Source: Persicobacter psychrovividus (GTDB taxonomy: Bacteria > Bacteroidota > Bacteroidia > Cytophagales > Cyclobacteriaceae). From it: a DNA stretch of 64,000 nt. Both the position numbers and the translations under genes were made by a program. Under the pieces are notes generated by a model that was not told the origin of the DNA, made no database searches, and saw only the letters and a list, made by a program, of their open reading frames with translations. This document shows, piece by piece, positions 5,353 to 39,475 of the stretch (its first letter is position 1; each line of letters opens with the position of its first letter). Where the stretch lies: the NCBI RefSeq assembly GCF_036492425.1, contig NZ_AP025294.1:248001-312000 (forward strand), given 5' to 3'.

Positions 5353-6507
5353 TCAATACCACTCATAGCCTTTTTCAAACTGCTCCTGACTTACCGGCAA
5401 TCCTTCAAAGGATTTGTCATAATTCATATACAGATGCAGACGACACTTCTTTTCCCTACTGATGTCAAACATTTCTACGGGTAGATTTTCTTTTGAAATA
5501 GCATTTCCTTGAACATTAATGTATTGTAAATTCGGCATTCGCCCAAAAGCCTTGGGTAAGGTTTTTAGTTCATTTCCATCCATCGTTAAATTTCTCAGCT
5601 TTTGAAGCTTAACAATTTTTTCAGGAATTTCCGAAATTTGATTACCCCATAATTGGAGGTCTTCCAAAGTTTCGATCTCAAAGACATAATTAGGGATAGC
5701 CGTCAGTTTGTTATGTCCTAAATTCAAGCTTTTCAAGTTTTTGCAGTGTGCAATTTCCTTGGGGACAGGGATGGTTTTTGGTTTGCTATTGGGATTATAG
5801 ACGCCCGTTCCTGGGCTGGCAAAAAACCTAAAATTCAACTCCTCCAAGGAATCTTGTTTCCCTAAATTGGGGGAAATGTAAGAGAGATGGTTGCAGTCCG
5901 TCATCCAAATTTTCTTGATCTTCATGGTGGAAATCTCATCTGGGATAGAATCGATGGAGTTTTTTGATAAAAAAAATTCTATGGCTGGGGAGTTAGGATC
6001 TTGCTTGATGATGGGAAACTTAGTGATTTTAGTTTTTTGTAAGTACAGTTTTTTAAGCTTGGGAAAATTCAATGGTGTTTGTATTACAGAAATAGGGTTA
6101 TCTGCTAAGTCTATAACCTCTAATTGTTGCATTTTTAGAAGCTGTTGCGGGAAATGTTTAAAATTATTTTCTGATAAGAAAAATTTAGAGAGAGGCAGAT
6201 TACATATCCAATCTGGTAATTCACTTAAGTTATCTCCATGTAAAAGCAACAAAACTTTTAATTTGCTAAAAGCAAGTAACTCAACAGGAATTTCACCATT
6301 AGATAGACTATCGATAGCAACTAATCTAACCAAACCATCTTCATTTTTTTCAAAATCAGCAAGGGGATGACGCTCTTTAATTGCTTTTATCGCCTTTAAC
6401 TCTTTTTCATAAACCTCCTTAGATATTGTCCTTTTTTTCTCAGAATTACATGCAGAGGTGAATATCGTAAAAAGAACAAATACCAAGTAAATTACCTTAT
6501 TCATCAT
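5353..6507 (-). CDS. LRR lipoprotein, unit 6 (last of array)
   Basis: A 384-residue protein. I chose the start at 6507 (MMNKVIYLVFVLFT) because it begins one base after the stop of the preceding module and gives a lipoprotein signal ending FTSAC. About ten leucine-rich repeats follow, of the LxxLxLxxNxIxxxP type (for example LKSLNLGHNKLTAIP). The middle carries the FASPGTGVYNPNSKPKT variant that is also found in units 3 and 4. It ends KGYEWY without the GRQY extension, like unit 2 but unlike the others, probably because no further module follows. LRR domains bind proteins, so a cell-surface or periplasmic binding partner of the module protein is plausible. That is inference. Confidence 0.85.
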   Translation of the reverse strand: MMNKVIYLVFVLFTIFTSACNSEKKRTISKEVYEKELKAIKAIKERHPLADFEKNEDGLVRLVAIDSLSNGEIPVELLAFSKLKVLLLLHGDNLSELPDWICNLPLSKFFLSENNFKHFPQQLLKMQQLEVIDLADNPISVIQTPLNFPKLKKLYLQKTKITKFPIIKQDPNSPAIEFFLSKNSIDSIPDEISTMKIKKIWMTDCNHLSYISPNLGKQDSLEELNFRFFASPGTGVYNPNSKPKTIPVPKEIAHCKNLKSLNLGHNKLTAIPNYVFEIETLEDLQLWGNQISEIPEKIVKLQKLRNLTMDGNELKTLPKAFGRMPNLQYINVQGNAISKENLPVEMFDISREKKCRLHLYMNYDKSFEGLPVSQEQFEKGYEWY

Positions 6508-6508
6508 C

Positions 6509-7213
6509 TTATTTATTGGTAGTGAAGTTAAAATAGTAAAAATCATACTGCTGGTGTAAATGGAAAAGTGGAAACAAAACCAATTGCTCAAAATCCCTGA
6601 TTGTGAATTTTTTCTGTCTCACCCGCTCATTATCTAACTCCCCCCAAAACCCCTTCGGTCCCTCAGCTTTAAGGGCATATTTGGCATCCTCCGCACTAAT
6701 AGTCATCAACTCACTCTCCATCTCTTTCCAAGTTGCCACCTCCGCATTTTCCTTAATGGGTCGGAAGAAGTTCTCAACAATTTTTTCCAATGAACTTTGG
6801 TGTTCCTTTTTGTAATGCTCCCATTGGGGATTGCTGGCATATGTTGGGTTTTGGGCTTGGTATGGGTCCCAGAATTGTGCTTTCATCATATCACGGTCGT
6901 ATTTTTCGGCTTCTTGGTCTTTGAGGCCTTTGTTGTTTCTTTCTTGTTGGATTTTTTCAAAAAATTGATCCTTTTGGTCTTTGGCGTGTTTGCCCATGGC
7001 GCCACTAACGTAGGCATTATAGATGGTCGAGATATAGGAGAGCGTGTCGGTGGCGGGTTCAATATGAAAAACACGTTCATATTCCGCCTGGAAGTCCATG
7101 CCTCCTGCAAGGGAACCATAACCACCCTGCCAAAGGGTTCGCTTGGCTTTGATGTCAAGCGTGCCCGTGCCTCCTATTTCATAGAACTGGGGGATCAATT
7201 GCCCTTTTTCCAA
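6509..7213 (-). CDS. Orphan C-terminal module, unit 6 (5'-truncated, probably silent)
   Basis: It matches the last ~250 residues of the 1333-residue protein at 15922-19923. Homology starts at 7249, directly after the stop codon of the LRR gene of unit 5 and in the same frame. There is no ATG; the first usable start is a TTG at 7213 (EKGQLIPQFYEIGG). The stretch between FWGE and the KKFTIRDFEQL region differs in every unit. The end, FPLFHLHQQYDFYYFNFTT, is conserved. With no start codon or evident RBS it is probably a recombination donor rather than an expressed gene. Translation by reinitiation or stop-codon readthrough from the LRR gene remains possible. Confidence 0.65.
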   Translation of the reverse strand: MEKGQLIPQFYEIGGTGTLDIKAKRTLWQGGYGSLAGGMDFQAEYERVFHIEPATDTLSYISTIYNAYVSGAMGKHAKDQKDQFFEKIQQERNNKGLKDQEAEKYDRDMMKAQFWDPYQAQNPTYASNPQWEHYKKEHQSSLEKIVENFFRPIKENAEVATWKEMESELMTISAEDAKYALKAEGPKGFWGELDNERVRQKKFTIRDFEQLVLFPLFHLHQQYDFYYFNFTTNK

Positions 7214-7249
7214 TACAAAGGTGGCGCTGAAGTTGATGGAGAGGTTGCC

Positions 7250-8392
7250 TTAATACTGTCGGCCATACCACCTATACCCCCTCTCAAATTGCTCCTGACT
7301 TACCGGTAAACCTTCAAATGATCTATCTTGAAACATATTAAGGAGTAGAGAACAACGTTTTTCCCTGCTGATGTCAAACATTTCTACGGGTAGATTTTCT
7401 TTTGAAATGGCATTACCCCAGACAGATATGGTTTCTAAATTTGGCATTTGCCCAAAGGCTTTAGGTAGGGTTTTCAGCTGATTATTTGTAACATAAATTC
7501 TTCTTAGCTTTTGAAGTTTGGAAATCTTTTCCGGAATTTCTGAAATCTTATTCCCTCTAAACCCCAAAATTTCCAGACTTGGGATCTCAAAAACATAATC
7601 TGGAATGCTTGTTAGCTCATTGTATTCCAAATCCAAATTTTTCAAATTTTTACAATGTTTTATTTCCTCAGGTATTGGAATTGTTCTTGGAATACTATTT
7701 CGATTGTAAAAAGCTGTCCCGAACTCCGCATTAAAACTAAAATTCAGTTCCTCTAAGGAATCTTGTTGCCCTAAATTGGGAGAAATATAAGTGAGTTGAT
7801 TACAGTCTGTCATCCAAATTTTCTTGATCTTCATGGAGGAAATCTCATCTGGGATAGAATCGATGAGGGTTTCTGCTAAATGAAAATAAATAGCAGGTGA
7901 GTTTTCTTCTTGCTTGATGATGGGAAATTTGGAAATTTTTGTTCCTGGCATCCAGAACTTCTCCAACTTAGGAAAATAAAGTGTATCATCTATTGAACTT
8001 ATAGGGTTCTCAGTCAAAACAATAAGTTCCAATTGGTTCATTTCCAAAAGTTGTTTAGGAAAATGCTTAAATTTATTTTTTCCTAAATAAACTTCTGTTA
8101 TCGCTAATTTACTTATCCAAGGAGGTAACTCACTAAGGCTGCCATGTAATGAGATTGCCTTTAAATGTTTAAATTTCTTTATTTCCAAAGGGATCTCACC
8201 ATCATGTAAACTATCTATAAATATATAATCGACAGTTCCTTTTTCAGTTTTGGTGAACTGCAGTGTCGGATGCTTTTCCATTAAAGAATTAATGATGCTT
8301 ACTTCTTCCTCATCTACAAATTGGTCTTTTTTATCTGTTGAGCATGATAAACAAGCAAGTAAACCAATCAACAATACACTTAACTGCTTCAT
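7250..8392 (-). CDS. LRR lipoprotein, unit 5
   Basis: A 380-residue protein. The start at 8392 (MKQLSVLLIGLLACLSC) lies one base after the stop of its partner module and gives a lipobox at CLSC. The N-terminal LRRs are specific to this unit. The central repeats carry the FNAEFGTAFYNRNSIPRT variant shared with units 1 and 2. The last 40 residues (CSLLLNMFQDRSFEGLPVSQ) are shared with unit 4, so the gene is a mosaic. It ends RWYGRQY, and the next module begins in frame immediately after the stop. Outer-membrane or periplasmic anchoring is inferred from the signal. Confidence 0.85.
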   Translation of the reverse strand: MKQLSVLLIGLLACLSCSTDKKDQFVDEEEVSIINSLMEKHPTLQFTKTEKGTVDYIFIDSLHDGEIPLEIKKFKHLKAISLHGSLSELPPWISKLAITEVYLGKNKFKHFPKQLLEMNQLELIVLTENPISSIDDTLYFPKLEKFWMPGTKISKFPIIKQEENSPAIYFHLAETLIDSIPDEISSMKIKKIWMTDCNQLTYISPNLGQQDSLEELNFSFNAEFGTAFYNRNSIPRTIPIPEEIKHCKNLKNLDLEYNELTSIPDYVFEIPSLEILGFRGNKISEIPEKISKLQKLRRIYVTNNQLKTLPKAFGQMPNLETISVWGNAISKENLPVEMFDISREKRCSLLLNMFQDRSFEGLPVSQEQFERGYRWYGRQY

Positions 8393-8393
8393 A

Positions 8394-9107
8394 TTATTGC
8401 TTTTTAGTGGTGAAATTAAAATAGTAAAAGTCATATTGTTGATGCAGCTCAAACAACGGAAACAAAACCATTTCCTCAAATTCATTGATTGTAAATTTCT
8501 TAGTATATAAATCCCTATCTAATATTCTTCGCTCTCCCCAAAACCCCTTAGGCCCACCTTTCCCCAAAACATAATCTGCATCAACCGCACTAATCGTCAT
8601 CAACTTGTCCTCCATCTCTTCCCACTTTTCAACCTCCGCATTTTCCTTAATCGGTCGGAAGAAATTCTCAATGATGTTTTCCAATGAGCCTTGGTGTTGC
8701 TTTTTGTAGTGCTCCCATTGGGGATTGCTGGCATATGTTGGGTTTTGGGCTTGGTATTGGTCCCAGAATTGTGCTTTCATCATATCACGGTCGTATTTTT
8801 CGGCTTCTTGGTCTTTGAGGCCTTTGCTGTTTCTTTCTTGTTGGATTTTTTCAAAAAATTGATCCTTTTGGTCTTTGGCGTGTTTGCCCATGGCGCCACT
8901 AACATAGGCATTATAGATGGTCGAGATATAGGAGAGCGTGTCGGTGGCGGGCTCAATATGAAAAACACGTTCATATTCGGCCTGGAAGTCCATGCCTCCT
9001 GCAAGGGAACCATAGCCACCCTGCCAAAGGGTTCGCTTGGCTTTGATGTCAAGCGTGCCCCTGCCTCCTATTTCGTAGAACTGGGGGATCAACTGCCCTT
9101 TTTCCAA
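8394..9107 (-). CDS. Orphan C-terminal module, unit 5 (5'-truncated, probably silent)
   Basis: Paralogous to the C-terminus of the 1333-residue protein. Homology begins at 9143, right after the stop of LRR unit 4, in the same frame. Only a TTG at 9107 could serve as start. The unit-specific tip (RRILDRDLYTKKFTINEFEEM) precedes the conserved aromatic-rich end QQYDFYYFNFTTKKQ. It carries MGKHAKDQ like the full-length gene, whereas unit 4 has MAKGAKDQ. The LRR gene of unit 5 follows after one base. Most likely a silent donor cassette. Confidence 0.65.
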   Translation of the reverse strand: MEKGQLIPQFYEIGGRGTLDIKAKRTLWQGGYGSLAGGMDFQAEYERVFHIEPATDTLSYISTIYNAYVSGAMGKHAKDQKDQFFEKIQQERNSKGLKDQEAEKYDRDMMKAQFWDQYQAQNPTYASNPQWEHYKKQHQGSLENIIENFFRPIKENAEVEKWEEMEDKLMTISAVDADYVLGKGGPKGFWGERRILDRDLYTKKFTINEFEEMVLFPLFELHQQYDFYYFNFTTKKQ

Positions 9108-9143
9108 AACAAAGGTGGCGTTGAAGTTGATGGAGAGGTTGCC

Positions 9144-10304
9144 TTAATACTGTCGGCCATACCACCTATACCCCCTCTCAAATTGCTCCTGACTTACCGG
9201 TAAACCTTCAAATGATCTATCTTGAAACATATTAAGGAGTAGAGAACAACGTTTTTCCCTGCTGATGTCAAACATTTCTACGGGTAGATTTTCTTTTGAA
9301 ATGGCATTGCCCCAAACTGAAATGGTTTCTAAGTTGGGCATTTGCCCAAAAGATCTCGGAAAAGTTTTGAGGTTATTGTTAGGCAGATAAATATCTTTTA
9401 ATTTTTGAAGCTTCACAATTTTCTCAGGAATTTCCGAAATCTGATTATCCCACAATTCTAAATTTTCCAAGCTTTCAATTTCAAAAACATAATCAGGGAT
9501 GGCTGTCAGTTTGTTATGTCCTAAATTCAAGCTTTTCAAGTTTTTGCAGTGCGCAATTTCCTTTGGTACAGGCACCGTTTTGGGTTTGCTATTGGGATTA
9601 TAGACACCCGTACCCGGACTGGCAAAGAACCTAAAGTTCAACTCTTCCAAGGAATCTTGTTTTCCTAAATTAGGGGAAATGTAAGTGAGTTTGTTACAGT
9701 CCGTCATCCAAATTTTCTTGATCTTCATGGAGGAAATTTCATCAGGGATAGAATCGATAAGAGTCTCTTTAAAATGGAAATCTATGGCTGGGGAGTTAGG
9801 ATCTTGCCTGATGATGGGGAATTTGGAAATTTTTGTCCCTGGCATCCAAAGCATTTTTAAATTAGGAAGATCTAAGTCAAAATCAATAGAAGATATAGGG
9901 TTGTCTCCTAAATGTATTCCCTCCAACTTTTTCATTTTTAGTAGTTGTTGAGGAAATTCGCTAAGATTATTATTAGGTAAGTATATTTTACGGAGAGGTA
10001 GTTCGCTAATCCATTCAGGCAATGCGCTTAAATCAGTTCCATCCACAAGTAAAATTTCTATTTTTTTGAAAAACAGCAATTCTTTTGGTAGTCTACCATT
10101 ATTTAGACTATCAAAATACACTACATTTACTAAGCCATTCTCGTCTTTTTCAATATCTGCGTTAGGGATTTTCTTAAGGATTGCTTTTATAGCATTTCCT
10201 TCCATTTCAAGGTATACTGGAGGAATACTAATTTTATCTTCTGGGTTGCATGAGCAGATAAAAAACGCAAATAGAGTGATAATCAAATATTTAATTTTAC
10301 TCAT
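9144..10304 (-). CDS. LRR lipoprotein, unit 4
   Basis: A 386-residue protein starting at 10304 (MSKIKYLIITLFAFFICSC), four bases after the module stop. The residues after the lipidated Cys are acidic (NPED), as in surface-exposed Bacteroidota lipoproteins. Its central part (FASPGTGVYNPNSKPKT, then KDIYLPNNNLKTFPRSFG) is almost the same as in unit 3. Its C-terminal 40 residues match unit 5 instead. This switch of similarity along the gene points to recombination among units. About ten LRRs; predicted ligand-binding, no enzymatic motif. Confidence 0.85.
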   Translation of the reverse strand: MSKIKYLIITLFAFFICSCNPEDKISIPPVYLEMEGNAIKAILKKIPNADIEKDENGLVNVVYFDSLNNGRLPKELLFFKKIEILLVDGTDLSALPEWISELPLRKIYLPNNNLSEFPQQLLKMKKLEGIHLGDNPISSIDFDLDLPNLKMLWMPGTKISKFPIIRQDPNSPAIDFHFKETLIDSIPDEISSMKIKKIWMTDCNKLTYISPNLGKQDSLEELNFRFFASPGTGVYNPNSKPKTVPVPKEIAHCKNLKSLNLGHNKLTAIPDYVFEIESLENLELWDNQISEIPEKIVKLQKLKDIYLPNNNLKTFPRSFGQMPNLETISVWGNAISKENLPVEMFDISREKRCSLLLNMFQDRSFEGLPVSQEQFERGYRWYGRQY

Positions 10305-10308
10305 CGAC

Positions 10309-11019
10309 TTATTTTTTAGTAGTGAAATTGAAATAGTAGAAGTCGTATTGCTGATGTAAATGAAAGAGAGGGTATAGTACGGTTTCCTCAAACTCAACAA
10401 TGCTAAATTTCTTTTTATCAATTATTGAACCTTCCAATTTCCGCTCTCCCCAAAACCCCTTAGGCCCACCTTTCCCCAAAACATAATCTGCATCAACCGC
10501 ACTAATTGTCATCAACTCACTCTCCATCTCTTTCCAAGTTGCCACCTCCGCATTTTCCTTAATGGGTCGGAAGAAATTTTCAATGATTTTTTCCAATGAG
10601 CCTTGATGCTCCTTTTTGTAGTACTCCCATTGGGGGTTGGAGGCGTATGTTGGGTTTTGAGCTTGGTATGGGTCCCAGAATTGTGCTTTCATCATATCAC
10701 GGTCGTATTTTTCGGCTTCTTGGTCTTTGAGGCCTTTGCTGTTTCTTTCTTGTTGGATTTTTTCAAAAAATTGATCCTTTTGGTCTTTGGCTCCTTTAGC
10801 CATGGCGCCACTAACGTAGGCGTTATAGATGGTCGAGATGTAGGAGAGCGTGTCGGTGGCGGGCTCAATATGAAAAACACGTTCATATTCCGCCTGAAAG
10901 TCCATGCCTCCTGCAAGGGAGCCATAGCCACCCTGCCAAAGGGTTCGCTTGGCTTTGATGTCAAGCGTGCCCGTGCCTCCTATTTCATAGAACTGGGGGA
11001 TCAACTGCCCTTTTTCCAA
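10309..11019 (-). CDS. Orphan C-terminal module, unit 4 (5'-truncated, probably silent)
   Basis: Matches the C-terminal ~250 residues of the 1333-residue protein from 11055, immediately after the stop of LRR unit 3 and in frame with it. There is no ATG, only a TTG at 11019. It differs from its paralogues by MAKGAKDQ and by the tip RKLEGSIIDKKKFSIVEFEE. LRR unit 4 follows after four bases. Probably a donor cassette. Confidence 0.65.
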   Translation of the reverse strand: MEKGQLIPQFYEIGGTGTLDIKAKRTLWQGGYGSLAGGMDFQAEYERVFHIEPATDTLSYISTIYNAYVSGAMAKGAKDQKDQFFEKIQQERNSKGLKDQEAEKYDRDMMKAQFWDPYQAQNPTYASNPQWEYYKKEHQGSLEKIIENFFRPIKENAEVATWKEMESELMTISAVDADYVLGKGGPKGFWGERKLEGSIIDKKKFSIVEFEETVLYPLFHLHQQYDFYYFNFTTKK

Positions 11020-11055
11020 AACAAAGGTGGCGCTGAAGTTGATGGAGAGGTTGCC

Positions 11056-12216
11056 TTAATACTGTCGGCCATACCACCTATACCCCCTCTCAAATTGCTC
11101 CTGACTTACCGGCAAGCCCTCATAAGATTTATCATTACTCATATACAAAAGCAAGGCGCATTTCTTTTCCCTGTTGATGTCGAACATTTCTACGGGTAGA
11201 TTTTCTTTTGAAATGGCATTTCCCCAGACTGATATGGTTTCTAAATTTGGCATTTGCCCAAAAGATCTCGGAAAAGTTTTGAGGTTATTGTTAGGCAGAT
11301 AAATATCTTTTAATTTTTGAAGCTTCACAATTTTCTCAGGAATTTCCGAAATCTGATTATCCCACAATTCTAAATTTTCCAAGCTTTCAATTTCAAAAAC
11401 ATAATCAGGGATGGCTGTCAGTTTGTTGTGCCCCAAATTCAAGCTTTTCAAGTTTTTGCAGTGTGCAATTTCCTTGGGTACAGGCACCGTTTTGGGTTTG
11501 CTATTAGGGTTAAAAACACCCGTACCCGGACTGGCAAAGAATCTGAAATTCAGTTCTTCTAAGGAATCTTGTTTTCCTAAATTAGGGGTAATGTAAGTGA
11601 GTTGGTTGCAGTCTGTCATCCATATTTTCTTGATTCTCATGGAGGAAATTTCATCTGGAATAGAGTCGATGGGGGTTTCTGCTAAGTGAAAATCTATGGA
11701 TGGGGAGTTGGGTTCTTGCTTGATGATGGGAAATTTGGTGATTTTTGTCCCTGGCATCCAAAACTGTTTTAATTTGGGGAAGTTGAGAGTTTCGTTTACT
11801 GAACTAATAGGATTGTCATTTAATACGATAACCTCTAAAAGGGTCATGTTCAACAACTGATCAGGAAATTGATTAAATCTATTATTTGGTAGATAGATAC
11901 TTTTTAATGGTAATTTGCTAATCCATTCGGGTAGTTCACTTATTTCACCGTCATAAAGCATAAGCATTTTCAAAGAATCAAACAGCTGTAAATCAACAGG
12001 TACCTCACCATTTCTTAGGCTATCGATATAAATATCACATACTAAACCGTTATCATCTTTGTAAATTTTAGCATTTCCATATTTACTCTGTATTCTTTCT
12101 ATAACCCTTTGTTCTTTATCATAAATATCCTGAGGTATATCTACATTCTTTTCGGGTTCACCACATGAGAGAAAAAGAATAAATGGGATGATAATGAAAT
12201 TTTTTATATCACTCAT
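11056..12216 (-). CDS. LRR lipoprotein, unit 3
   Basis: A 386-residue protein from the ATG at 12216 (MSDIKNFIIIPFILFLSC), four bases after the module stop, with a lipobox at LFLSC followed by GEPE. The LRR N-half is unit-specific. From FRFFASPGTG to PVEMFDI it follows unit 4 nearly residue for residue. It then switches to the ending KKCALLLYMSNDKSYEGLPV found in unit 1. This is the clearest mosaic breakpoint in the array. Ends RWYGRQY. Binding role inferred from the LRR fold. Confidence 0.85.
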   Translation of the reverse strand: MSDIKNFIIIPFILFLSCGEPEKNVDIPQDIYDKEQRVIERIQSKYGNAKIYKDDNGLVCDIYIDSLRNGEVPVDLQLFDSLKMLMLYDGEISELPEWISKLPLKSIYLPNNRFNQFPDQLLNMTLLEVIVLNDNPISSVNETLNFPKLKQFWMPGTKITKFPIIKQEPNSPSIDFHLAETPIDSIPDEISSMRIKKIWMTDCNQLTYITPNLGKQDSLEELNFRFFASPGTGVFNPNSKPKTVPVPKEIAHCKNLKSLNLGHNKLTAIPDYVFEIESLENLELWDNQISEIPEKIVKLQKLKDIYLPNNNLKTFPRSFGQMPNLETISVWGNAISKENLPVEMFDINREKKCALLLYMSNDKSYEGLPVSQEQFERGYRWYGRQY

Positions 12217-12220
12217 CGTC

Positions 12221-12715
12221 TTATTTTTTAGTAGTGAAATTGAAATAATAGAAATCATACAGCTGCTGTAAATGGAAGAGAGGAAACAAAACTAAAGTTT
12301 CAAACTCCTCTACTGTAAATCTCTTAGCCTTAATCATTTTGCTATCAAATCTACGCTCTCCCCAAAACGCCTTCGGCCCTTTCGCTTTAAGCGCATATTC
12401 GGCATCAACCGCACTAATCGTCATCAACTCACTCTCCATCTCTTCCCACGATTCAACCTCCGCATTTTCCTTAATCGGTCGGAAGAAATTCTCAATGATC
12501 TTTTCCAATGAGCCTTGGTGTTCCTTTTTGTAGTGTTCCCATTGGGGATTGCTGGCGTATGTTGGGTTTTGGGCTTGGTATGGGTCCCAGAATTGTGCTT
12601 TCATCATATCACGGTCGTATTTTTCGGCTTCTTGGTCTTTGAGGCCTTTGTTGTTTCTTTCTTGTTGGATTTTTTCAAAAAATTGATCCTTTTGGTCTTT
12701 GGCGTGTTTGCCCAT
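12221..12715 (-). CDS. Orphan C-terminal module, unit 3 (further truncated)
   Basis: Only 164 residues from an ATG (MGKHAKDQKDQF). Homology to the other modules extends to 12772, where it stops inside TDTLSYISTIYNA. The first ~65 residues seen in the other modules are absent, and a palindromic insert (12773-12859) lies there instead. The tip (RRFDSKMIKAKRFTVEEFET) is unit-specific and the aromatic C-terminus is conserved. Unlike its siblings it has an in-frame ATG, but that Met is internal to the family, so expression is still doubtful. Confidence 0.6.
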   Translation of the reverse strand: MGKHAKDQKDQFFEKIQQERNNKGLKDQEAEKYDRDMMKAQFWDPYQAQNPTYASNPQWEHYKKEHQGSLEKIIENFFRPIKENAEVESWEEMESELMTISAVDAEYALKAKGPKAFWGERRFDSKMIKAKRFTVEEFETLVLFPLFHLQQLYDFYYFNFTTKK

Positions 12716-12772
12716 GGCGCCACTAACGTAGGCATTATAGATGGTCGAGATATAGGAGAGCGTGTCGGTGGT

Positions 12773-12859
12773 TCATTAGTTCAAGCGTCCCGCTTGGACT
12801 AATTTCTGATCCAAGCGTGATGCTTGAACCAGAGTAAACTGGTTGATTCAGAGGCTACC
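12773..12859. repeat. REP-like double hairpin inserted in unit 3
   Basis: The sequence holds two adjacent palindromes. The first runs TTAGTTCAAGCG / CGCTTGGACTAA around a 3-nt loop (near 12777-12803). The second is CAAGCGTGATGCTTG with flanking complementarity (near 12812-12830). It replaces the module start found at this point in the other units. Paired imperfect palindromes of this sort resemble REP/BIME-type elements moved by RAYT transposases. No such transposase is in the window. Confidence 0.6.
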
Positions 12860-14005
12860 CTAATACCACTCATACCCCTTCTCAAATTGCTCCTGACTTA
12901 CCGGCAAACCTTCAAAGGATTTATCATAAAACATGTACAAATGCAAGTAGCATTTCTTTTCCCTACTGATGTCGAACATTTCTACAGGTAGATTTTCTTT
13001 TGAAATGGCATTCCCCCAAACAGAAATGGTTTCTAAATTCGGCATTTGCCCAAAGGATTTAGGTAGGTTTCTCAACTGATTATTTGTAACATATATTCTT
13101 CTTAACTTTTGAAGTTTGGAAATCTTTTCCGGAATTTCTGAAATCTTATTCCCTCTAAAGCCCAAAACTTCCAAGCTTGGAATTTCAAAAACATAATCTG
13201 GAATGCTTGTTAGCTCATTGTATTCCAAATCCAAATTCTTCAAATTTTTACAATCCCTTATTTCCTCAGGTATTGGAATTGTTCTTGGAATACTATTTCT
13301 ATTGTAAAAAGCTGTCCCGAACTCCGCATTAAAACTAAAATTCAGTTCCTCTAAGGAATCTTGTTTTCCTAAATTAGGGGAAATGTAGGTGAGTTGATTA
13401 CAGTCTGTCATCCAAATTTTCTTGATCTTCATGGAGGAAATCTCATCTGGGATAGAATCGATAGCAGTTTCAGCTAAGTGAAAGTAAATCGCAGGAGAGT
13501 TAGGATCTTGCTTGATGATGGGAAACTTGGTGATTTTAGTTACAGGCATATAAAGCACCTTTAAATTGGGGAAATACAAAGTATCATCAATTATTTCAAT
13601 TGGGTTATTTCTTAACTGGATAGCCTCTAAGCTATTCATTTTTAGAAGCTGTTTAGGGAAGGACTCAAAGTCATTATCCCCCAAATAAATTTGAATTAAC
13701 CGTAACTCACTTATCCAATTCGGTAAGTCACTTAAATTTCCATCCATCAGTAAAATTTTTAAAGAGTCAAATAATTGTAACTCGGTTGGTACTTCACCAT
13801 TGGTTAGACTATCAAGAGATACTTTGTAAACAAGATCATTATCATCTTTGTATATTGAGGCATTAGAATGCAATTTCTTTATAATTTCTATTGCCTTTTG
13901 TTCCTTATCATATACCTCTTGTGGTATATTTATTTTATTTTCGGAAATGCACGATGAGAATAATATCATCAAACAAGTGAAGACCATATATTTTGCCCTA
14001 TTCAT
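12860..14005 (-). CDS. LRR lipoprotein, unit 2
   Basis: A 381-residue protein from the ATG at 14005 (MNRAKYMVFTCLMILFSSC), four bases after the module stop. The LRR centre carries the FNAEFGTAFYNRNS variant shared with units 1 and 5. The C-terminus ends KGYEWY as in unit 6, not RWYGRQY. Units 2 and 6 are the two LRR genes not followed by an intact module, so the GRQY extension appears to be created by the repeat junction. Confidence 0.85.
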   Translation of the reverse strand: MNRAKYMVFTCLMILFSSCISENKINIPQEVYDKEQKAIEIIKKLHSNASIYKDDNDLVYKVSLDSLTNGEVPTELQLFDSLKILLMDGNLSDLPNWISELRLIQIYLGDNDFESFPKQLLKMNSLEAIQLRNNPIEIIDDTLYFPNLKVLYMPVTKITKFPIIKQDPNSPAIYFHLAETAIDSIPDEISSMKIKKIWMTDCNQLTYISPNLGKQDSLEELNFSFNAEFGTAFYNRNSIPRTIPIPEEIRDCKNLKNLDLEYNELTSIPDYVFEIPSLEVLGFRGNKISEIPEKISKLQKLRRIYVTNNQLRNLPKSFGQMPNLETISVWGNAISKENLPVEMFDISREKKCYLHLYMFYDKSFEGLPVSQEQFEKGYEWY

Positions 14006-14009
14006 CACC

Positions 14010-14720
14010 TTAATGTTTAGTCGTGAAATTGAAGTAATAAAAATCATATTGTTGATGTAGATGAAAGAGAGGATACAATACCAATGCCTCAAATTCCTTA
14101 ATAGTAAATTTCTTTTCTAACACCTCGTTTTCAAATATATTTTTACCTCCCCAAAACGCCTTAGGCCCACCTTTCCCCAAAACATAATCTGCATCATCCG
14201 CACTAATAGTCATCAACTCACTCTCCATCTCTTTCCAAGTTGCCACCTCCGCATTTTCCTTAATCGGTCGGAAGAAATTCTCAATGATGTTTTCCAATGA
14301 GCCTTGGTGTTGCTTTTTGTAGTGCTCCCATTGGGGATTGGAGGCGTATGTTGGGTTTTGGGCTTGGTATTGGTCCCAGAATTGTGCTTTCATCATATCA
14401 CGGTCGTATTTTTCGGCTTCCTCATCTTTGAGGCCTTTGTTGTTTCTTTCTTGTTGGATTTTTTCAAAAAATTGATCCTTTTGGTCTTTGGCTTCTTTGG
14501 CCATGGCGCCACTAACGTAGGCGTTATAAATGGTCGAGATATAGGAGAGCGTGTCGGTGGCGGGCTCAATATGAAAAACACGTTCATATTCGGCCTGAAA
14601 GTCCATGCCTCCTGCAAGGGAACCATAGCCACCCTGCCAAAGGGTTCGCTTGGCTTTGATATCAAGCGTGCCCGTGCCTCCTATTTCATAGAACTGGGGG
14701 ATCAACTGCCCTTTTTCCAA
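14010..14720 (-). CDS. Orphan C-terminal module, unit 2 (5'-truncated, probably silent)
   Basis: Matches the end of the 1333-residue protein from 14756, directly after the TGA stop of LRR unit 1 and in frame. The other junctions use TAA. The only candidate start is TTG at 14720. Distinguishing residues are MAKEAKDQ and the tip GKNIFENEVLEKKFTIKEFE. The conserved end reads FYYFNFTTKH. It is the first repeat behind the expressed pair and therefore the nearest recombination donor. Confidence 0.65.
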   Translation of the reverse strand: MEKGQLIPQFYEIGGTGTLDIKAKRTLWQGGYGSLAGGMDFQAEYERVFHIEPATDTLSYISTIYNAYVSGAMAKEAKDQKDQFFEKIQQERNNKGLKDEEAEKYDRDMMKAQFWDQYQAQNPTYASNPQWEHYKKQHQGSLENIIENFFRPIKENAEVATWKEMESELMTISADDADYVLGKGGPKAFWGGKNIFENEVLEKKFTIKEFEALVLYPLFHLHQQYDFYYFNFTTKH

Positions 14721-14756
14721 AACAAAGGTGGCGTTGAAGTTGATGGAGAGGTTGCC

Positions 14757-15920
14757 TCAATACTGTCGGCCATACCACCTATACCCCCTCTCAAATTGCT
14801 CCTGACTTACCGGCAAGCCCTCATAAGATTTATCATTACTCATATACAAAAGCAAGGCACATTTCTTTTCCCTTCTAATATCAAACATTTCTACGGGCAG
14901 ATTTTCTTTTGAAATGGCATTTCCCCAAACTGAAATGGTTTCTAAGTTGGGCATTTTCCCAAAGGATTTAGGTAGGGTTTTCAGCTGATTATTTGTAACA
15001 TAAATTCTTCTTAACTTTTGAAGTTTGGAAATCTTTTCCGGAATTTCTGAAATCTTATTCCCTCTAAAGCCCAAAATTTCCAAGCTTGGGATTTCAAAAA
15101 CATAATCTGGAATGCTTGTTAGCTCATTGTATTCCAAATCCAAATTTTTCAAATTTTTACAATGTTTTATTTCCTCAGGTATTGGAATTGTTCTTGGAAT
15201 ACTATTTCGATTGTAAAAAGCTGTCCCGAACTCCGCATGAAAACTAAAATTTAATTCCTCCAATGAATCTTGTTGTCCTAAATTAGGGGATATGTAAGTG
15301 AGATTGTTGCAGTCCGACATCCAAATTCTTTTGATCTTCATGGAGGAAATTTCATCAGGGATAGAATCGATAAGAGTCTCTTTAAAATGGAAATCTATGG
15401 CTGGGGAGTTAGGATCTTGCCTGATGATGGGGAACTTGGTGATCTTGGTATTTGGCAACCAAAATGTTTGCAAGTTCGGGAAATAAAGTTGATCATCTAT
15501 TGAAACAATTGGATTGCTCCTTAAAACTATAAGCGACAAACTACTCATACTTAGAAGCTGTTTTGGAAATTGATTGAAATTATTATTACCCAAATAAACT
15601 TCAGACAAAGGTAATTTACTAAACCATTCAGGTAGTTCACTCAATGAACCGTCATTAAATAATACAATTTTTAAATTATCAAAACGTTGTAACTCTATAG
15701 GTAACTCTCCATTAGATAGACTATCAATTGCAACCAAGGTAACAAAACCATTATCATCTTTTTCGAAGTCGGCATTAGGGTATTGTGCCTTTATAGCCTC
15801 GATCGCCTCTTGTTCCTTTTCATAAACTGCTTGAGGAATTTTACTATTTTCCCCGGAAGTACAAGATGAAATGATCATAAGAAAAATGGAGAAAATTAGG
15901 TGTTTTATTTTTCTGATCAT
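14757..15920 (-). CDS. LRR lipoprotein, unit 1 (partner of the full-length protein)
   Basis: A 387-residue protein. The start at 15920 (MIRKIKHLIFSIFLMIISSC) lies one base after the TAA of the 1333-residue gene, so the two are certainly cotranscribed and probably translationally coupled. It has a lipobox at IISSC and about ten LRRs. The central variant is FHAEFGTAFYNRNS, and the C-terminal 40 residues are shared with unit 3. It is the only LRR gene of the array sitting behind a complete upstream gene. By analogy with polymorphic toxin loci it could be an immunity or receptor-type partner. Nothing in the sequence proves toxicity of the upstream protein. Confidence 0.88.
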   Translation of the reverse strand: MIRKIKHLIFSIFLMIISSCTSGENSKIPQAVYEKEQEAIEAIKAQYPNADFEKDDNGFVTLVAIDSLSNGELPIELQRFDNLKIVLFNDGSLSELPEWFSKLPLSEVYLGNNNFNQFPKQLLSMSSLSLIVLRSNPIVSIDDQLYFPNLQTFWLPNTKITKFPIIRQDPNSPAIDFHFKETLIDSIPDEISSMKIKRIWMSDCNNLTYISPNLGQQDSLEELNFSFHAEFGTAFYNRNSIPRTIPIPEEIKHCKNLKNLDLEYNELTSIPDYVFEIPSLEILGFRGNKISEIPEKISKLQKLRRIYVTNNQLKTLPKSFGKMPNLETISVWGNAISKENLPVEMFDIRREKKCALLLYMSNDKSYEGLPVSQEQFERGYRWYGRQY

Positions 15921-15921
15921 C

Positions 15922-18900
15922 TTATTGCTTGGTTGTAAAATTGAAATAATAAAAATCATATTGTTGATGTAGATGAAAAAGTGGAAATAATACCAGTGTC
16001 TCAAATTCTTCAATAGTAAACTTTTTTATATTTATATCCGTTTTCGTGAAATTTCGCTCTCCCCAAAACCCCTTCGGTCCGCCTTTCCCCAAAACATAAT
16101 CTGCATCAACCGCACTAATGGTCATCAATTCATCCTCCATCTCTTCCCACGATTCCACCTCCGCATTTTCCTTAATGGGTCGGAAGAAATTCTCAATGAT
16201 TTTTTCCAATGAGCCTTGGTGTTCCTTTTTGTAGTGTTCCCATTGGGGATTGCTGGCATATGTTGGGTTTTGGGCTTGGTATGGGTCCCAGAATTGTGCT
16301 TTCATCATATCACGGTCGTATTTTTCAGCTTCTTGGTCTTTGAGGCCTTTGTTGTTTCTTTCTTGTTGGATTTTTTCAAAAAATTGATCCTTTTGGTCTT
16401 TGGCGTGTTTGCCCATGGCGCCACTAACGTAGGCATTATAGATGGTCGAGATATAGGAGAGCGTGTCGGTGGCGGGCTCAATATGAAAAACACGTTCATA
16501 TTCCGCCTGGAAGTCCATGCCTCCTGCAAGGGAACCATAGCCACCCTGCCAAAGGGTTCGCTTGGCTTTGATATCAAGCGTGCCCGTGCCTCCTATTTCG
16601 TAGAACTGGGGGATCAATTGTCCCTTTTCCAAAACAAAGGTGGCGTTGAAGTTGATGGATAAATCACCTCCTATTCGATTTACCTTTTTGTTTTGGGCTT
16701 CATGCAATTGGTTAATGGCAATTGGCTTTTTCTGATATTTTTCAAATATATGTTGTTTGTTTTTCAGGTACGTTACATAGTTGCGCTTCGCCGCGCGCTC
16801 AAAACCATCCTGTTCCATATTGGGTAGCGCAAGTAAAGTCTGCCCCAAACCATTGTAACTGTTACCCAATAAGCTTAATAAATCCGTAAACAGCCCCTTA
16901 CCTTTTAGTAAATCCTGAATCTGCCCGACCGTTTTTTTGATATTTTCAGCGAGATGGGCTACGCCATCTTTTGTTTTGGAGATTTGATCTTTGAAGGTCT
17001 TCAAATGTGTTTTCAAGGATTCCAAATCTGCCATATCTTTGAGTAGCCCAAACAAATCATCGAGTGAAATTTCCAAGGAAAACGTCAGGTACTGCCCATT
17101 ATTGTCCTTATTGGCGTCATAGGCAATATTGGAATAGGTGATGTCCAAGGGACCAAAATTGGTCTGATAATTGGACACGATGGCTGCATTTGCAAATTCC
17201 GCAGACTGGTTTTTGCTATTTGTTCGGTTCACCTTTTGACCAATATAGCCTGGTGCAAGGGTTTCATGGCTGCTGATCATACTGCTGTTTTTGCCCAAGC
17301 CACTGTCTTTATAGGTGGCACTTAAGTTGGGCTCTTGCTGATTTTTGATCAGCTTGGGAGCCGTCATGGCATTTTTGCGAACGTCTTCATCATCAAAATA
17401 CTGAATGAATTTAGGTAAATAGGCACCATTGCCCAATAGGGCGACATAAAGGTCATGGTTAAGGGCTGCCGCAAAATGATCGATATGGTCATAGGCATGG
17501 GTTTTTCCCATGATTTTAAAGGATTTGCTGGCCCTGAGTTGGGTAAAATACAAATCAAGGCCACCTTCGATTTCACCTTTGAGGGAGGTGGTGGCGGTAA
17601 TGCCCAAATCGTAGCCCTGTTCGAGTGATGCCATGCTTCGGGCGGTCAGGCGAAGGTAGAGTACCAATAAAGCCCTGCCTTCGAGGTAAACGGCGAGATT
17701 GAAAGTCAGACTGCCACCGCCATATTCATGGTAGAGCGATTTTAATATTTTAGCAAAATCTTCGGGCTGATAATTCCCCGCATCAATCTGTAGATCCCCC
17801 AAGCTATTGACCCGAATGGCGGCCGATTGAATCTGACGCAATCGGCCATTGATCAGGTGATAGTACAAACTTTGGGCATACACCTGCTCTGCGGGCGCAT
17901 GGATCACCTGCCCTACCCGTAGGATCGCCTTTACCCCATTATAATGGGTGATCATTCCACGGGAATCAATCTCTTCCCAACTGGGGTTATAATATTTTAA
18001 ATCATCGATGGTGATGCCCCATTGTGCCGCAAGCGCAGAAAGACTGTCGCCCGCCTGCACCACATAGGCATAGAGCGGACTGCCCTCAGCACTGTGCTGA
18101 AATTTGACATAACTGCCGTTGGGCAATTGAGCGACCTGCAGATTCCAGTCCTGATCGGTATTGACCTGAAACTGATCGGTCAGCTCCTTAACACCTTCAC
18201 CGTGGAGATCATAATCACGGGCAGTCAGGTAAGCCATTGCCGTCGCTAAGCTATCATTAGAAAGCGCATAGAGTGGCACACGATAAGACACATTGTTGCC
18301 TGCCAAACCGACGGTTTGCGGTATGAACTGTGTGCCTACTTGCAGTCTGGTCAGGTCTTTCAAATTATCGATGATCTCCCCCCCATAATTGTTTAGGTAG
18401 GCTTGCTTGAATGCGGCAATATTAGCCGGGTGCAATCGCAAGGATGCCAGGGTTGAAAAGAGCTCATACTGATCGACGACCTGCTTTTGGGAAGAGGCCT
18501 TATTTATTGCATTAAAGGCCCTATCGGCCAATTGCTCTGCATTTAGTCCATCCCAAAATTTGACTTTGGGCAATAGTTTTTCTTCTTCCTTGATGCCTTG
18601 TTCTTCTTTCTCAGAAAGAAAATTAGAGGCATCGAATTCTTTCACCTGCAAGGCTTCCTGAATGCCCCTCAGACAAGCTCTATCCTCAGCAGACATGTTT
18701 CTCCAAACAAATTCGTCATAATATTCCCTCCGTTTTTTATGGATCGCTTGTTGTAGCGTGATGTCAGGCATCTGCATTCGGAATGCCTCTTGCAACTCAA
18801 AAATAGCACTGGCATCCCCCTCAAGTTCAAAGACCTTTTGATGGATTTCCCTAAGCTGTGGCATCAAATTGTCTGAGCTGTTCACCCATTGAGCAATCGT

Positions 18901-19923
18901 TTCGGCTACTGCATTTACATCCACATTTGAACGGTCAAGCAATAGGCTGCCCTTCTCCAACCAACGACCATGCCCCTGCTGATTTAGCTCGTAGATCAAG
19001 GTGCCGGTCATCAATTTTATCGACCACTCTGGGAGTAAAACCCGTTGGCCTTGTTGTAAAAATTTCTCCTGTTGGTTATCATTATCGATATACCTACCTC
19101 CTTTGCCCAATGACCAGCCATTGACGGTCAATAAATCCATCAGGGACAGCTGGAATTTATCCTGTAAATGCGCAAAGCCTTCGCCCTTGCCCATATAATA
19201 GGTATAATCCAGCATCTCTGTTTCCGTCCGTTCAATCACCAAAACCCCTTCGGGTCTATTTTGTGCATTCAATTCAGGAAGTTGCTCCGCCTTAGCGACC
19301 GTCATCAATAATAGATTGCGCAGATCATTGTCCTGCAAATCCATCCACAAATCACCTTCATACAACAAGCGCAGTAGCTTCAGCGCATGGGCATCTCCGT
19401 CAAAAGACAGCAGTACCTGCTTGGCATCAACCATTCTTCCACTGATTAGCGCTCTTTTCAAACTGCCCGCCAGATAGTCAATCGTTTGAATATTGTGTTG
19501 ATCATTGGGTTGATCCTGTTGATACTTCAAAACCGTTGCGATTTTCTCTTTAGCCAGGGCTCTTTTACCAGTAGATGACCTCAAATCATCAAATTCAGCA
19601 TCGATCGCTTCCTTGATTGGCTTAGGCAATATCGTCAATTCAAATCTTGACAGCGCCAAAACAAATTCAACACAAAAGGCATCTTGTTGCATCCAACCCA
19701 CCTGCTCATAGGCCAAAAAAAACAGGTCAGGCTGATGAAGAAAATGCTTCTTCACCACCGCCGCCACACTCGACAGACCGCCACCTGTTTCCAGGGCCTG
19801 TTGAAGCGCTTGTTTGGCCTGTTGCCATTTAAGATCAGCATTTTCGGGCTGCATTTCTTTGCGCTGATACTGAACACTTTCTTGTTGTTTATGCGCTGGA
19901 CGACGGATATAGGTGCTTGACAT
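15922..19923 (-). CDS. Large LysM-containing protein with exchangeable C-terminus (putative injection-system cargo or surface component)
   Basis: A 1333-residue protein with no signal peptide. The N-terminus is polar and probably disordered. Residues ~150-210 and ~470-525 are helical with weak annexin-like spacing. LysM-like segments lie at ~240-300 and more clearly at ~618-680 (VVQAGDSLSALAAQWGITID). The middle is beta-rich, followed by a helical stretch (~960-1030). The last ~250 residues (from GGDLSINFNATF) are the part copied in the five orphan modules. The gene lies 320 bp downstream of the tape measure gene on the same strand, suggesting a product loaded on or into the injection machine. 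I see no HExxH or other catalytic motif, so a toxin role is only one possibility beside adhesin or tail component. Confidence 0.75.
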   Translation of the reverse strand: MSSTYIRRPAHKQQESVQYQRKEMQPENADLKWQQAKQALQQALETGGGLSSVAAVVKKHFLHQPDLFFLAYEQVGWMQQDAFCVEFVLALSRFELTILPKPIKEAIDAEFDDLRSSTGKRALAKEKIATVLKYQQDQPNDQHNIQTIDYLAGSLKRALISGRMVDAKQVLLSFDGDAHALKLLRLLYEGDLWMDLQDNDLRNLLLMTVAKAEQLPELNAQNRPEGVLVIERTETEMLDYTYYMGKGEGFAHLQDKFQLSLMDLLTVNGWSLGKGGRYIDNDNQQEKFLQQGQRVLLPEWSIKLMTGTLIYELNQQGHGRWLEKGSLLLDRSNVDVNAVAETIAQWVNSSDNLMPQLREIHQKVFELEGDASAIFELQEAFRMQMPDITLQQAIHKKRREYYDEFVWRNMSAEDRACLRGIQEALQVKEFDASNFLSEKEEQGIKEEEKLLPKVKFWDGLNAEQLADRAFNAINKASSQKQVVDQYELFSTLASLRLHPANIAAFKQAYLNNYGGEIIDNLKDLTRLQVGTQFIPQTVGLAGNNVSYRVPLYALSNDSLATAMAYLTARDYDLHGEGVKELTDQFQVNTDQDWNLQVAQLPNGSYVKFQHSAEGSPLYAYVVQAGDSLSALAAQWGITIDDLKYYNPSWEEIDSRGMITHYNGVKAILRVGQVIHAPAEQVYAQSLYYHLINGRLRQIQSAAIRVNSLGDLQIDAGNYQPEDFAKILKSLYHEYGGGSLTFNLAVYLEGRALLVLYLRLTARSMASLEQGYDLGITATTSLKGEIEGGLDLYFTQLRASKSFKIMGKTHAYDHIDHFAAALNHDLYVALLGNGAYLPKFIQYFDDEDVRKNAMTAPKLIKNQQEPNLSATYKDSGLGKNSSMISSHETLAPGYIGQKVNRTNSKNQSAEFANAAIVSNYQTNFGPLDITYSNIAYDANKDNNGQYLTFSLEISLDDLFGLLKDMADLESLKTHLKTFKDQISKTKDGVAHLAENIKKTVGQIQDLLKGKGLFTDLLSLLGNSYNGLGQTLLALPNMEQDGFERAAKRNYVTYLKNKQHIFEKYQKKPIAINQLHEAQNKKVNRIGGDLSINFNATFVLEKGQLIPQFYEIGGTGTLDIKAKRTLWQGGYGSLAGGMDFQAEYERVFHIEPATDTLSYISTIYNAYVSGAMGKHAKDQKDQFFEKIQQERNNKGLKDQEAEKYDRDMMKAQFWDPYQAQNPTYASNPQWEHYKKEHQGSLEKIIENFFRPIKENAEVESWEEMEDELMTISAVDADYVLGKGGPKGFWGERNFTKTDINIKKFTIEEFETLVLFPLFHLHQQYDFYYFNFTTKQ

Positions 19924-23200: not shown

Positions 23201-23337
23201 GCCTGTTCGAGTTGAGGTAACAATATTTTTCGAATTTGGTGGTTGATGTCATCAAGAAACTCATCAAGCTTATCCTGACGATCAAATTCCATATCCACAT
23301 TTAGTCGATCAATTCTAACCAGTCTTTCTTCTTTCAT
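20245..23337 (-). CDS. Contractile injection system tape measure protein (Afp14/Pvc14-like)
   Basis: A 1030-residue, largely helical protein. The start MKEERLVRIDRLNVDMEFD leads into the N-terminal region typical of CIS_TMP proteins (a strand, then IRKILLPQLEQALLQWI). The C-terminus has the family's closing block: SSLGNFRASFLMREAKIHL, then a short acidic strand, LLNSLPWNYQVIRFPWM, and a terminal Trp. In Afp and PVC particles this protein sets tube length from inside the tube. The gene begins 44 bp after the 333-residue gene and lies in the same run as the cap and GH18 genes. Confidence 0.88.
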   Translation of the reverse strand: MKEERLVRIDRLNVDMEFDRQDKLDEFLDDINHQIRKILLPQLEQALLQWIENNEFGNLSIDQLQIDCTFNFLDDAWEMPEELQAVIAKAWEELPDSQQKFQSLTQSRAQAFALFLNEGTKLIDGQWEDLALDQLLSLLPSWTWKERHLQVLLRQYPFQTLLSAFGSVVKKSNEWLLLGLERCFQNGYQQNTSETAVLFEKLLNNALEFTDWHHFFIQLPTTYQQAKYWLIEKSYPSMYLQSIALHRPMLRESILLSLWPFHSLVTKKHELLKPMIIQWLFDSLVHQGDKNQKSLKSFKEDFTSNSEVLKAFLSRQITEFTPPKDKELFYLSLLFNWPLIRSIGVNWYPLETHIFEEIKAIKQADLTSLMTLWKNVSTVEAISKLQPYSAELQIVLKVLWVEVRTQKGSVQQYWALVRDLFKEPKDFEKAIKAYPNTITQHSQVNLAKATLDQLLRDTQKTPWQAYVFLSCFDQLNDQADQQQYLLNRWSDAATQAFRLQKNQNFEFGKGSTDPKLQHILLNRLTISQQLEENKMKALAPEGVDTMSRKSDKTHPTEWISLKEQLEGMDKHEQLALLKESLNRQIRQGLMTLPYWAKYPLMVKELEGSSSNFRQVLSDIWVLYIPLQRMLFRLNPIIKQLKLELSDFQFYLWNNAAKIINPQEIDDTHYFMKSFVQWTISANVSPAQVFSLREQLTSSNAVDLYFEQLSQTTFEAGKGFAKDFAFVKKFHLQLLPAIDELLKQYHQAFEKGANRLVEKRAQMLTQWRKTEQALRVLFWHKDRLNWEVETIKMKLNTATEIWQKAAWHKAGQWPNINTKVEWLTQLEKDPRQLFQILQQQLEASIDQKVVQASITDYAKSNLKHGETVAISNGGLVLLAPFIPRLFKMKGIVEGKEMTNIEQQIKGIFYLQYLATGQSHADEHELFLNKIMTEFPAGHPLPQEYELSSEERELLDGLLEAAIGQWSQLGKSSLGNFRASFLMREAKIHLVDEQRWEIDIEKKSWDVLLNSLPWNYQVIRFPWMSCPIQVSW

Positions 23338-26688: not shown

Positions 26689-26762
26689 ATGATACAAATA
26701 AAATATTATTTTTAATTTAAATTTATCTAAAATAGTATTTCAACTACAACTTATTTAACAAT

Positions 26763-35949: not shown

Positions 35950-35992
35950 TCTTGCAATTAATTTAATTTAAAATAAAAAATCGAAATAGATT

Positions 35993-36430: not shown

Positions 36431-36434
36431 ACTT

Positions 36435-36920: not shown

Positions 36921-36925
36921 CAAAC

Positions 36926-37087
36926 ATGATTGAAATTAAACAGCTCAATATTAACATAAAACTAAAATCAGAGCGCTCAAATGGAAAAAAGGAACATCAG
37001 GCCATTGTTGACTTGCCGATTAAGGATATAGTTCGTGAATCAACCCGACAAGTACTTAAAGAAATTCAAAAGAAAAAAATTCGGTAG
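36926..37087 (+). CDS. Small DUF5908-like protein (Afp6/Pvc6 position)
   Basis: A 53-residue protein starting MIEIKQLNINIKLK, with a charged linker and an amphipathic C-terminal helix ending QKKKIR. It begins 5 bp after the tube gene stop and ends 2 bp before the next ATG, so it is well embedded in the operon. Short proteins with an IEIKxLxI start in this place belong to the DUF5908/Pvc6 group. Its role is unknown. It is easily missed because of its size. Confidence 0.7.
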   Translation: MIEIKQLNINIKLKSERSNGKKEHQAIVDLPIKDIVRESTRQVLKEIQKKKIR

Positions 37088-37089
37088 AT

Positions 37090-37731: not shown

Positions 37732-37737
37732 TAAATA

Positions 37738-39474: not shown

Positions 39475-39475
39475 T

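Follow-up and report, generated by a model that had tools for sequence, protein, structure and literature searches.

Loci of contact-dependent inhibition (CDI) and Rhs systems hold orphan cdiA-CT/cdiI pairs and silent rhs cassettes, in which the C-terminal fragments are generally without translation starts; orphan CDI immunity genes can be expressed, and VENN and PxxxxDPxGL are the boundary motifs of CDI and Rhs proteins (Poole et al. 2011, PMC3150448). Neisseria MafB/MafI loci contain silent mafB-CT cassettes, the exchange of which was inferred by genome comparison (Jamet et al. 2015, PMC4287609). Proteins with leucine-rich repeats (LRR) are listed, as Imm-LRR, among the immunity proteins of polymorphic toxins (Zhang et al. 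2012, PMC3482391). In extracellular contractile injection systems (eCIS), immunity genes lie beside some toxins only, a shortage that has been called an intriguing mystery (Geller et al. 2021, PMC8213781), and AlgoCIS carries the lumen cargo proteins Cgo1 and Cgo2, which are encoded in the eCIS cluster of a marine member of the Bacteroidota (Xu et al. 2022, PMC8894135). Statements on these systems, here and below, refer to parts of the cited articles. In this study, we describe a tandem array in a 64-kb stretch of DNA (the window; positions 248001-312000 on contig C3 of the 6.15-Mb genome G000, Bacteroidota, Cytophagales), in which a large gene beside eCIS genes (the head) is followed by an LRR lipoprotein gene and by orphan copies of the head's C-terminal part (the tip), each with an LRR partner gene. 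Genome labels of this form denote sampled genomes, and all counts refer to the genomes examined. The anatomy and repeats of the locus, its constant-variable-constant profile, recombination between units, variation on the concave face of the partners, recurrence in other genomes, and linkage to eCIS genes at some loci lead us to propose, with moderate confidence, that the head encodes a polymorphic, eCIS-associated effector that has an LRR lipoprotein as its immunity protein and is diversified through the exchange of cassettes.

An earlier sequence-only reading of the window had described a complete 1333-residue gene with its LRR gene, followed on the same strand by five copies of only the last ~250 codons plus an LRR gene, next to a contractile injection tape measure gene, and had likened the layout to that of orphan toxin/immunity cassettes. 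Open reading frames (ORFs), the repeat, and domain searches bear this out (Table 1). The copied length is ~245 codons, and the copies do not include the head's start; each is followed by its own partner gene, as in orphan cassettes. The tip repeat has six copies with 85-94% identity to the reference copy over 300 nt and a start-to-start spacing of 1789-1912 nt, and it is not a product of chance. Each of the four full copies begins 9 nt past the stop codon of the preceding LRR gene, and the probable start codon of the LRR gene is 1-4 bases past the tip stop codon in every one of the six units. A TTG codon is found a few codons inside four of the five orphan tip copies, and their translation is therefore possible. 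The exception in length is copy 3, which has lost the first ~62 tip codons and matches head residues 1151-1332 only; the site of the lost part (12773-12859) is a short stretch of other DNA, in which an inverted-repeat sequence was seen by eye. The head has the arrangement of a polymorphic toxin, i.e., a constant N-terminal carrier, a variable C-terminus, and an adjoining partner gene, and within the species the hypervariability is confined to ~13 tip residues. LysM is the sole domain above its cut-off in a Pfam scan of the head. EF-hand_15, the one Pfam match in the tip that is common to several members (6 of 18), scores under the cut-off in the window tip (20.2 versus 27 bits) and was dismissed. 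A promoter pattern for Bacteroidota was absent from the head start and gave one chance-like match within the head gene, at 18830.

Table 1. Coordinates of the array and of the adjoining eCIS genes in the window.
Feature	Position	Strand	Remarks
Head gene, 1333 aa	15922..19923	-	N-domain ~44-126 common with eCIS_core proteins, LysM 620-646, conserved middle, C-terminal tip domain
Head part recurring in the downstream copies	15922..16659	-	From codon ~1089
Hypervariable ~13-residue segment of head tip	16021..16059	-	Residues ~1289-1301
LRR lipoprotein, partner of the head	14757..16013	-	True start probably ATG at 15920, right after the head stop codon
Orphan tip copy 2	14010..14747	-	ORF 14010-14720; without the head's start
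LRR lipoprotein 2	12860..14092	-	
Orphan tip copy 3	12221..12772	-	ORF 12221-12715, 164 aa; 5′ part lost
LRR lipoprotein 3	11056..12258	-	
Orphan tip copy 4	10309..11019	-	ORF counted from first TTG
LRR lipoprotein 4	9144..10421	-	
Orphan tip copy 5	8394..9107	-	ORF counted from first TTG
LRR lipoprotein 5	7250..8485	-	
Orphan tip copy 6	6509..7213	-	ORF counted from first TTG
LRR lipoprotein 6	5353..6591	-	
CIS tape measure protein	20245..23337	-	Directly upstream of the head; PF19268, E = 3e-59
Pvc16-like gene and GH18 protein	24386..26697	-	Near the tape measure gene
eCIS structural genes	34369..40151	+	Sheath, two gp19-type tubes, CIS tube, VgrG/GPD-like hub, gp25

Tip residues 1-155 are at least 93% identical (mean, 96%) among the head, the five copies, and the tip of a second genome of the same species (G049), and pairs share 1-7 of 11-13 positions in the 13 aligned residues near the tip end. 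The nonsynonymous and synonymous divergences (pN and pS) are 0.024 and 0.168 for residues 1-155 (dN/dS = 0.13) and 0.44 and 0.68 for the hypervariable codons, and pS is 0.49-1.02 across the last 57 tip codons. In the LRR genes, pS is 0.62-0.82 in the mature N-half and 0.35-0.78 in the C-half, save for the last few codons. The hypervariable ~13 residues and the LRR N-half are near saturation, synonymous sites included, and this high divergence at synonymous sites points to more than protein-level selection. As judged from the sequences, the units hold old alleles within a recently shared frame. Identity in nucleotide bins averages 92-99% over the first 480 nt and 50-67% in the core, with one core bin at 79%; a constant-variable-constant profile was also observed in G318, a genome of a second family, with flanks of 95-100%, one 90-nt bin of 93%, and a core down to 58%. 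The LRR C-half is a mosaic in which the commonest split is {1,2,5} versus {3,4,6}. In a site-compatibility permutation test, the observed value was reached by none of 500 permutations, and the whole unit, the LRR C-half, and the core each reject the absence of recombination; within the tip constant region alone (23 sites), recombination was not detected (356 of 500 permutations).

All 34 partners examined begin with a signal-peptide-like stretch that has a cysteine close by (by eye), and 30 of them contain a strict lipobox pattern. The orphan LRR genes retain start codons and signal peptides (by eye). In the six LRR proteins of the window, the entropy in repeats 1-4 is 1.48 bits at concave and 0.69 bits at convex positions (p = 7e-5), and over all repeats the values are 0.97 and 0.42 (p = 6e-8); pN/pS in repeats 1-4 is 0.61 at concave versus 0.33 at convex codons. 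With motif-defined repeats, the concave effect is found in the window set (p = 1.5e-5) and in an array of six LRR genes in G280 (p = 1.1e-5). Outside the window, genome G000 contains more clusters of LRR matches, at C3:205693-226849 and C2:885886-888620, which are possibly other partner arrays.

The locus varies between strains. In G049, a metagenome-assembled genome classed as the same species as the window, the head is 94% identical from residue 235 onward and is preceded by transposase-like ORFs (by eye). The tip differs from all six window tips, and the partner, of which the first 81 residues of the LRR ORF are seen, is different by eye from those of the window. A second contig end holds the C-half of an LRR gene together with a tip copy that is broken. 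In G049, neither a tape measure match nor any long match to 9.1 kb of the window's eCIS region was found; it is the one head-bearing genome seemingly without an eCIS, and its head is broken, in a single case and a fragmented assembly.

Orphan tip and LRR arrays are present in a second family, in three genomes of one genus (G318, G389, and G280). In G318, the head, an LRR gene, and an AAA gene are followed by two units that each consist of a 169-aa tip, an LRR gene, and an AAA gene. In G389 (contig C331), the head and its LRR gene are followed by three units of a tip of ~110 aa with an LRR gene, one tip being frame-shifted (by eye). G280 has a single truncated tip with an LRR gene on contig C2 and, on contig C1, six LRR genes in succession (five extra) without tips. 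G255 carries additional LRR genes (two and one), accompanied by remnants of tips (by eye), and contig C1 of G010 has a lone tip match with stop codons and then an LRR gene. G318, G389, G280, and G255 all belong to one genus, and the make-up of the unit varies among them and from the window; because it differs between genomes, more than one origin of the arrays is suggested. The partner-only arrays suggest that partners may have value on their own. A diverged tip and LRR pair lies past the G318 array on the opposite strand (L068 173-2436, +).

The head protein as a query gave matches in 7 of 196 family genomes, and profile A1 in 9 of 390 order genomes; one of these nine is the window genome, and three match in the N-domain only. 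Matches that cover the N-domain only (G254, G328, and G339) were not counted as head genes. There are 17 head loci in 12 genomes of the order, from five genera: one each in the window genome, G049, G010, G029, G063, G120, and G149, and two each in G255, G268, G280, G318, and G389. An LRR gene directly follows the head at 15 loci, and the other two (G389:C415 and G268:C78) end at a contig edge; at G268:C78, the C-terminal homology carries on in a separate overlapping ORF. The incomplete head of G389:C415, which runs off the contig, was excluded from alignment A5. Among 395 phylum genomes sampled, at the sensitivity of the A5 profile, no head gene was found outside the order: 10 genomes gave matches, and those of the nine besides the window genome cover only ~505-657 of the profile, around the LysM region, and were dismissed. 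Phage records gave no match, and plasmid records gave one, to the Aureibacter tunicatorum plasmid pAT2, with match coordinates equal to those of G010.

A tape measure match, which served as a proxy for an eCIS where the locus itself was unread, was found in 11 of the 12 head genomes, with a background of 79 of 196 family and 103 of 390 order genomes (counted by genus, 45 of 84 for the family sample and 48 of 130 for the order sample). Four genomes have a head next to eCIS genes, namely, the window genome, G318 (two heads), G389, and G280, which makes 5 of the 17 loci. In G318 and G280, an eCIS run from the sheath to a HEAT protein, encoding relatives of the window proteins, leads into the head and its LRR gene, with an AAA gene between them and the run in G280; the second head-LRR pair of G318 lies across the eCIS, on the opposite side. 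In G389, the eCIS run leads into the head at the contig end. The pair lies beside an AAA ATPase gene in G010, G029, G255:C12, and G268:C93 (two ORFs away in the last), and these AAA genes are related to AAA genes that adjoin tape measure genes or lie within ~1.3 kb of them (G029, G149, G063, and G010).

The N-domain of the head (residues 44-126) corresponds to a domain in eCIS_core proteins of another family (hhalign probability = 96.3%, E = 1.9e-9; profile E of 3e-9 to 2e-7), and single-sequence BLASTP between them was not significant. Three proteins are matched by the N-domain, and the presence of eCIS_core was checked in two of them. The eCIS_core proteins L077 5368-8943, L077 10588-13452, and L079 7371-9980 have PG-binding, pesticin-like/LysM, and SLT domains; the head's N-domain is present in L077 5368-8943 and in the L079 protein. 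These proteins are probable eCIS effectors of that other family.

On the minus strand of the window, the genes upstream of the head are, in order, the tape measure gene, a gene without assignment, Pvc16, and GH18, followed by an nSTAND-WD40 and a HEAT-like protein (HEAT match below its cut-off). On the plus strand, the structural genes are followed by three large or unassigned genes. A tblastn search of the window with the G318 protein detected no AAA ATPase gene; relatives are encoded elsewhere on the same contig. The eCIS runs of G318, G389, and G280 encode relatives of the GH18 (24931-26697), nSTAND-WD40 (27306-30347), and HEAT-like (30359-33505) proteins, with identities of ~43%, ~31%, and ~23%, respectively. 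Transposase genes lie on both sides of the eCIS and array region, at 3215-4890 and 47341-54450, which suggests a mobile or variable island. At 56386-61133 (minus strand), size-matched ORF pairs without a Pfam match occur twice in succession (236 aa and 263 aa, then 236 aa and 267 aa), which, judged on size, is probably a tandem duplication.

From these sequences we infer loading, toxicity, binding, immunity, and live switching, as follows. The head protein would be a large eCIS cargo with the C-terminal domain as its active part, and the LRR lipoprotein, in the envelope of the producer, would bind the hypervariable segment of its cognate tip and neutralise the tip; kin would be spared, and strains with a different allele would not. 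The tip probably acts at the envelope, since the partner is a predicted lipoprotein. The orphan tips, without the head's start, would be a store of alleles, and homologous recombination would move the tip end and the LRR N-half into the head as one block; such exchange would be made possible by the near constancy of the tip flank and by an LRR C-half far less variable than the N-half. Orphan LRR genes may add immunity against foreign alleles. A more specific version, which we put forward only tentatively, is an allorecognition code borne by the contractile particle, in which the concave face of the LRR lipoprotein at the cell surface reads the ~13-residue segment of the injected tip and matched pairs swap as blocks between the putatively expressed head and the silent cassettes; if so, cells would change their "badge" and "reader" jointly in a single recombination step. 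The colicin-DNase exosite is a precedent for immunity specificity in a small variable patch of a constant toxin.

Several observations weigh against an eCIS effector with LRR-lipoprotein immunity. Neither a toxin fold nor a catalytic motif was recognised in the tip, which has no sequence relatives in the PDB (best E = 1.4); in Pfam, the best E for the tip alignment was 0.00057, the window tip scoring 20.2 bits against a cut-off of 27. AlphaFold2 with seven near-identical tip sequences gave no usable fold (mean predicted local distance difference test score, 37; predicted template modelling score, 0.28). No eCIS_core (PF13699) match was found in the head with Pfam at E values up to 0.1. In the partners, pN/pS is below 1 even at concave codons (0.61), and concave enrichment is not significant in G318 (three genes, p = 0.31) or G389 (four genes, p = 0.18); the concave-face effect, measured in these partners alone, may be partly general to LRR proteins. 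In Mantel tests on the six units, tip distances do not follow those of the LRR N-half (r = -0.16, reached by 470 of 720 permutations), and because both are near saturation, the absent correlation counts neither for nor against co-evolution; with the LRR C-half, the correlation is weak (r = 0.40, 54 of 720 permutations). The co-occurrence with the tape measure is weakened by relatedness, as the 12 genomes represent five genera, and position is more telling. At 12 of the 17 head loci, no eCIS structural genes adjoin; four of these 12 are beside an eCIS-type AAA gene, and eight have neither neighbour in the DNA examined (G049, G063, G120, G149, G255:C1, G268:C78, G280:C2, and G389:C331); two of these eight are on short or broken contigs (G049, 6.9 kb; G268:C78, which ends at the locus). 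G049 keeps tip and LRR genes, with no eCIS detected.

The recurrence beside injection-system genes, for which the sequence-only reading had asked for a test, is seen at 5 of the 17 loci, with a tape measure in 11 of the 12 genomes, and is not seen for structural genes at the other 12. The same reading had held that widespread homologues of the pair without an injection-system neighbourhood or downstream copies would mark the array as an incidental duplication; this holds in part, since 12 loci are away from structural genes and eight have neither a structural nor an AAA neighbour, but 11 of the 12 genomes have a tape measure. Its suggestion of a device that varies an injected or surface-exposed tip together with its partner gains support, as the pair recurs, lies at the end of an eCIS run in the second family, and forms arrays there, the injection itself being putative. 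The variation between strains that it asked about is seen in the head tip and, over its first 81 residues, in the partner of two genomes of one species.

The same features could also belong to a ligand-receptor system of kin recognition, in which the tip is a ligand displayed or delivered by the particle, the LRR lipoprotein is a surface receptor, and matching alleles mark self and trigger docking, exchange, or restraint. Variation limited to a short segment of a constant domain without a recognised toxin fold, and an LRR lipoprotein partner with its variability on the concave face, would suit such a system. We nevertheless regard it as unlikely, as the head-LRR order, the start-less orphans, and the partner-only arrays closely resemble toxin/immunity loci, and Pfam finds no adhesion or display domain in the head besides LysM. 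Silent cassettes with recombination are also known from antigenic variation systems, and both are present here; the tip and LRR protein might accordingly change so as to escape, or to match, hosts, prey, or phages, with the LRR protein as the tip's chaperone or anchor and not its immunity protein. This seems improbable, since a chaperone would not have to be a lipoprotein and arrays made up of LRR genes only would then lack an obvious use. An incidental tandem duplication, in which the 3′ end of a two-gene operon was copied and has since drifted without a function, would explain copies without the head start, the decayed 5′ part of copy 3, and the frame-shifted G389 tip (by eye), but is disfavoured as very improbable by the five window copies being open where present, the dN/dS of 0.13 in the constant tip part, a synonymous divergence that in the core greatly exceeds that of the tip flank, unlike the outcome of simple duplication and drift, and the arrays of G318, G389, and G280:C2, in which the unit boundaries are different.

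If the head is an eCIS effector with LRR-lipoprotein immunity, it is of interest in several respects. Many eCIS toxins have no visible immunity genes, and here a candidate effector linked to an eCIS comes with a diversified partner at the same locus and with a store of cassettes. An antibacterial, kin-related use of these eCIS thereby becomes directly testable. LRR lipoproteins would be given an immunity or recognition role beside an eCIS, and the units offer natural matched and mismatched pairs for studying the evolution of binding specificity. No paper joining an eCIS, an LRR partner, and immunity was found in the open-licence literature, subscription papers and preprints being mostly outside that search.

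Like CDI and Rhs loci, the window has a full-length head with its partner, followed by start-less C-terminal fragments that each have a partner gene (PMC3150448). Unlike them, it has neither VENN nor PxxxxDPxGL in the head and no CDI or Rhs domain (filamentous haemagglutinin and RHS repeat, Pfam), the partner is an LRR lipoprotein, the carrier gene is linked to an eCIS, and the array varies in a short tip segment and the partner N-half instead of the whole C-terminal domain. As in MafB/MafI loci, cassettes without an initiation codon lie downstream of a complete gene, with a partner gene after each; the head, however, has no MafB domain (Pfam), and the MafB systems, as described in that source, have no eCIS and no LRR lipoprotein partner (PMC4287609). 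The cargo-like gene at an eCIS locus with an adjoining candidate immunity gene resembles the eCIS toxins that have immunity genes, whereas the words "LRR," "leucine," "orphan," and "tandem" are absent from the main text of that survey (PMC8213781). At 15 of 17 head loci, an LRR gene comes immediately after the polymorphic C-terminus; this recalls Imm-LRR, which is listed beside toxins of type V secretion systems and in mixed polyimmunity loci, with no eCIS link or paired array described in that listing (PMC3482391). With Cgo1 and Cgo2 of AlgoCIS, the head shares the position of a cargo-type gene at a Bacteroidota eCIS locus, its own cargo status being putative; these carry DUF4157/eCIS_core, whereas the head is without eCIS_core and has a partner and an array (PMC8894135). 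By analogy, the locus most likely uses the same mechanism as the CDI, Rhs, and MafB cassettes with new parts, namely, an eCIS carrier, LRR lipoprotein immunity, and a short specificity segment.

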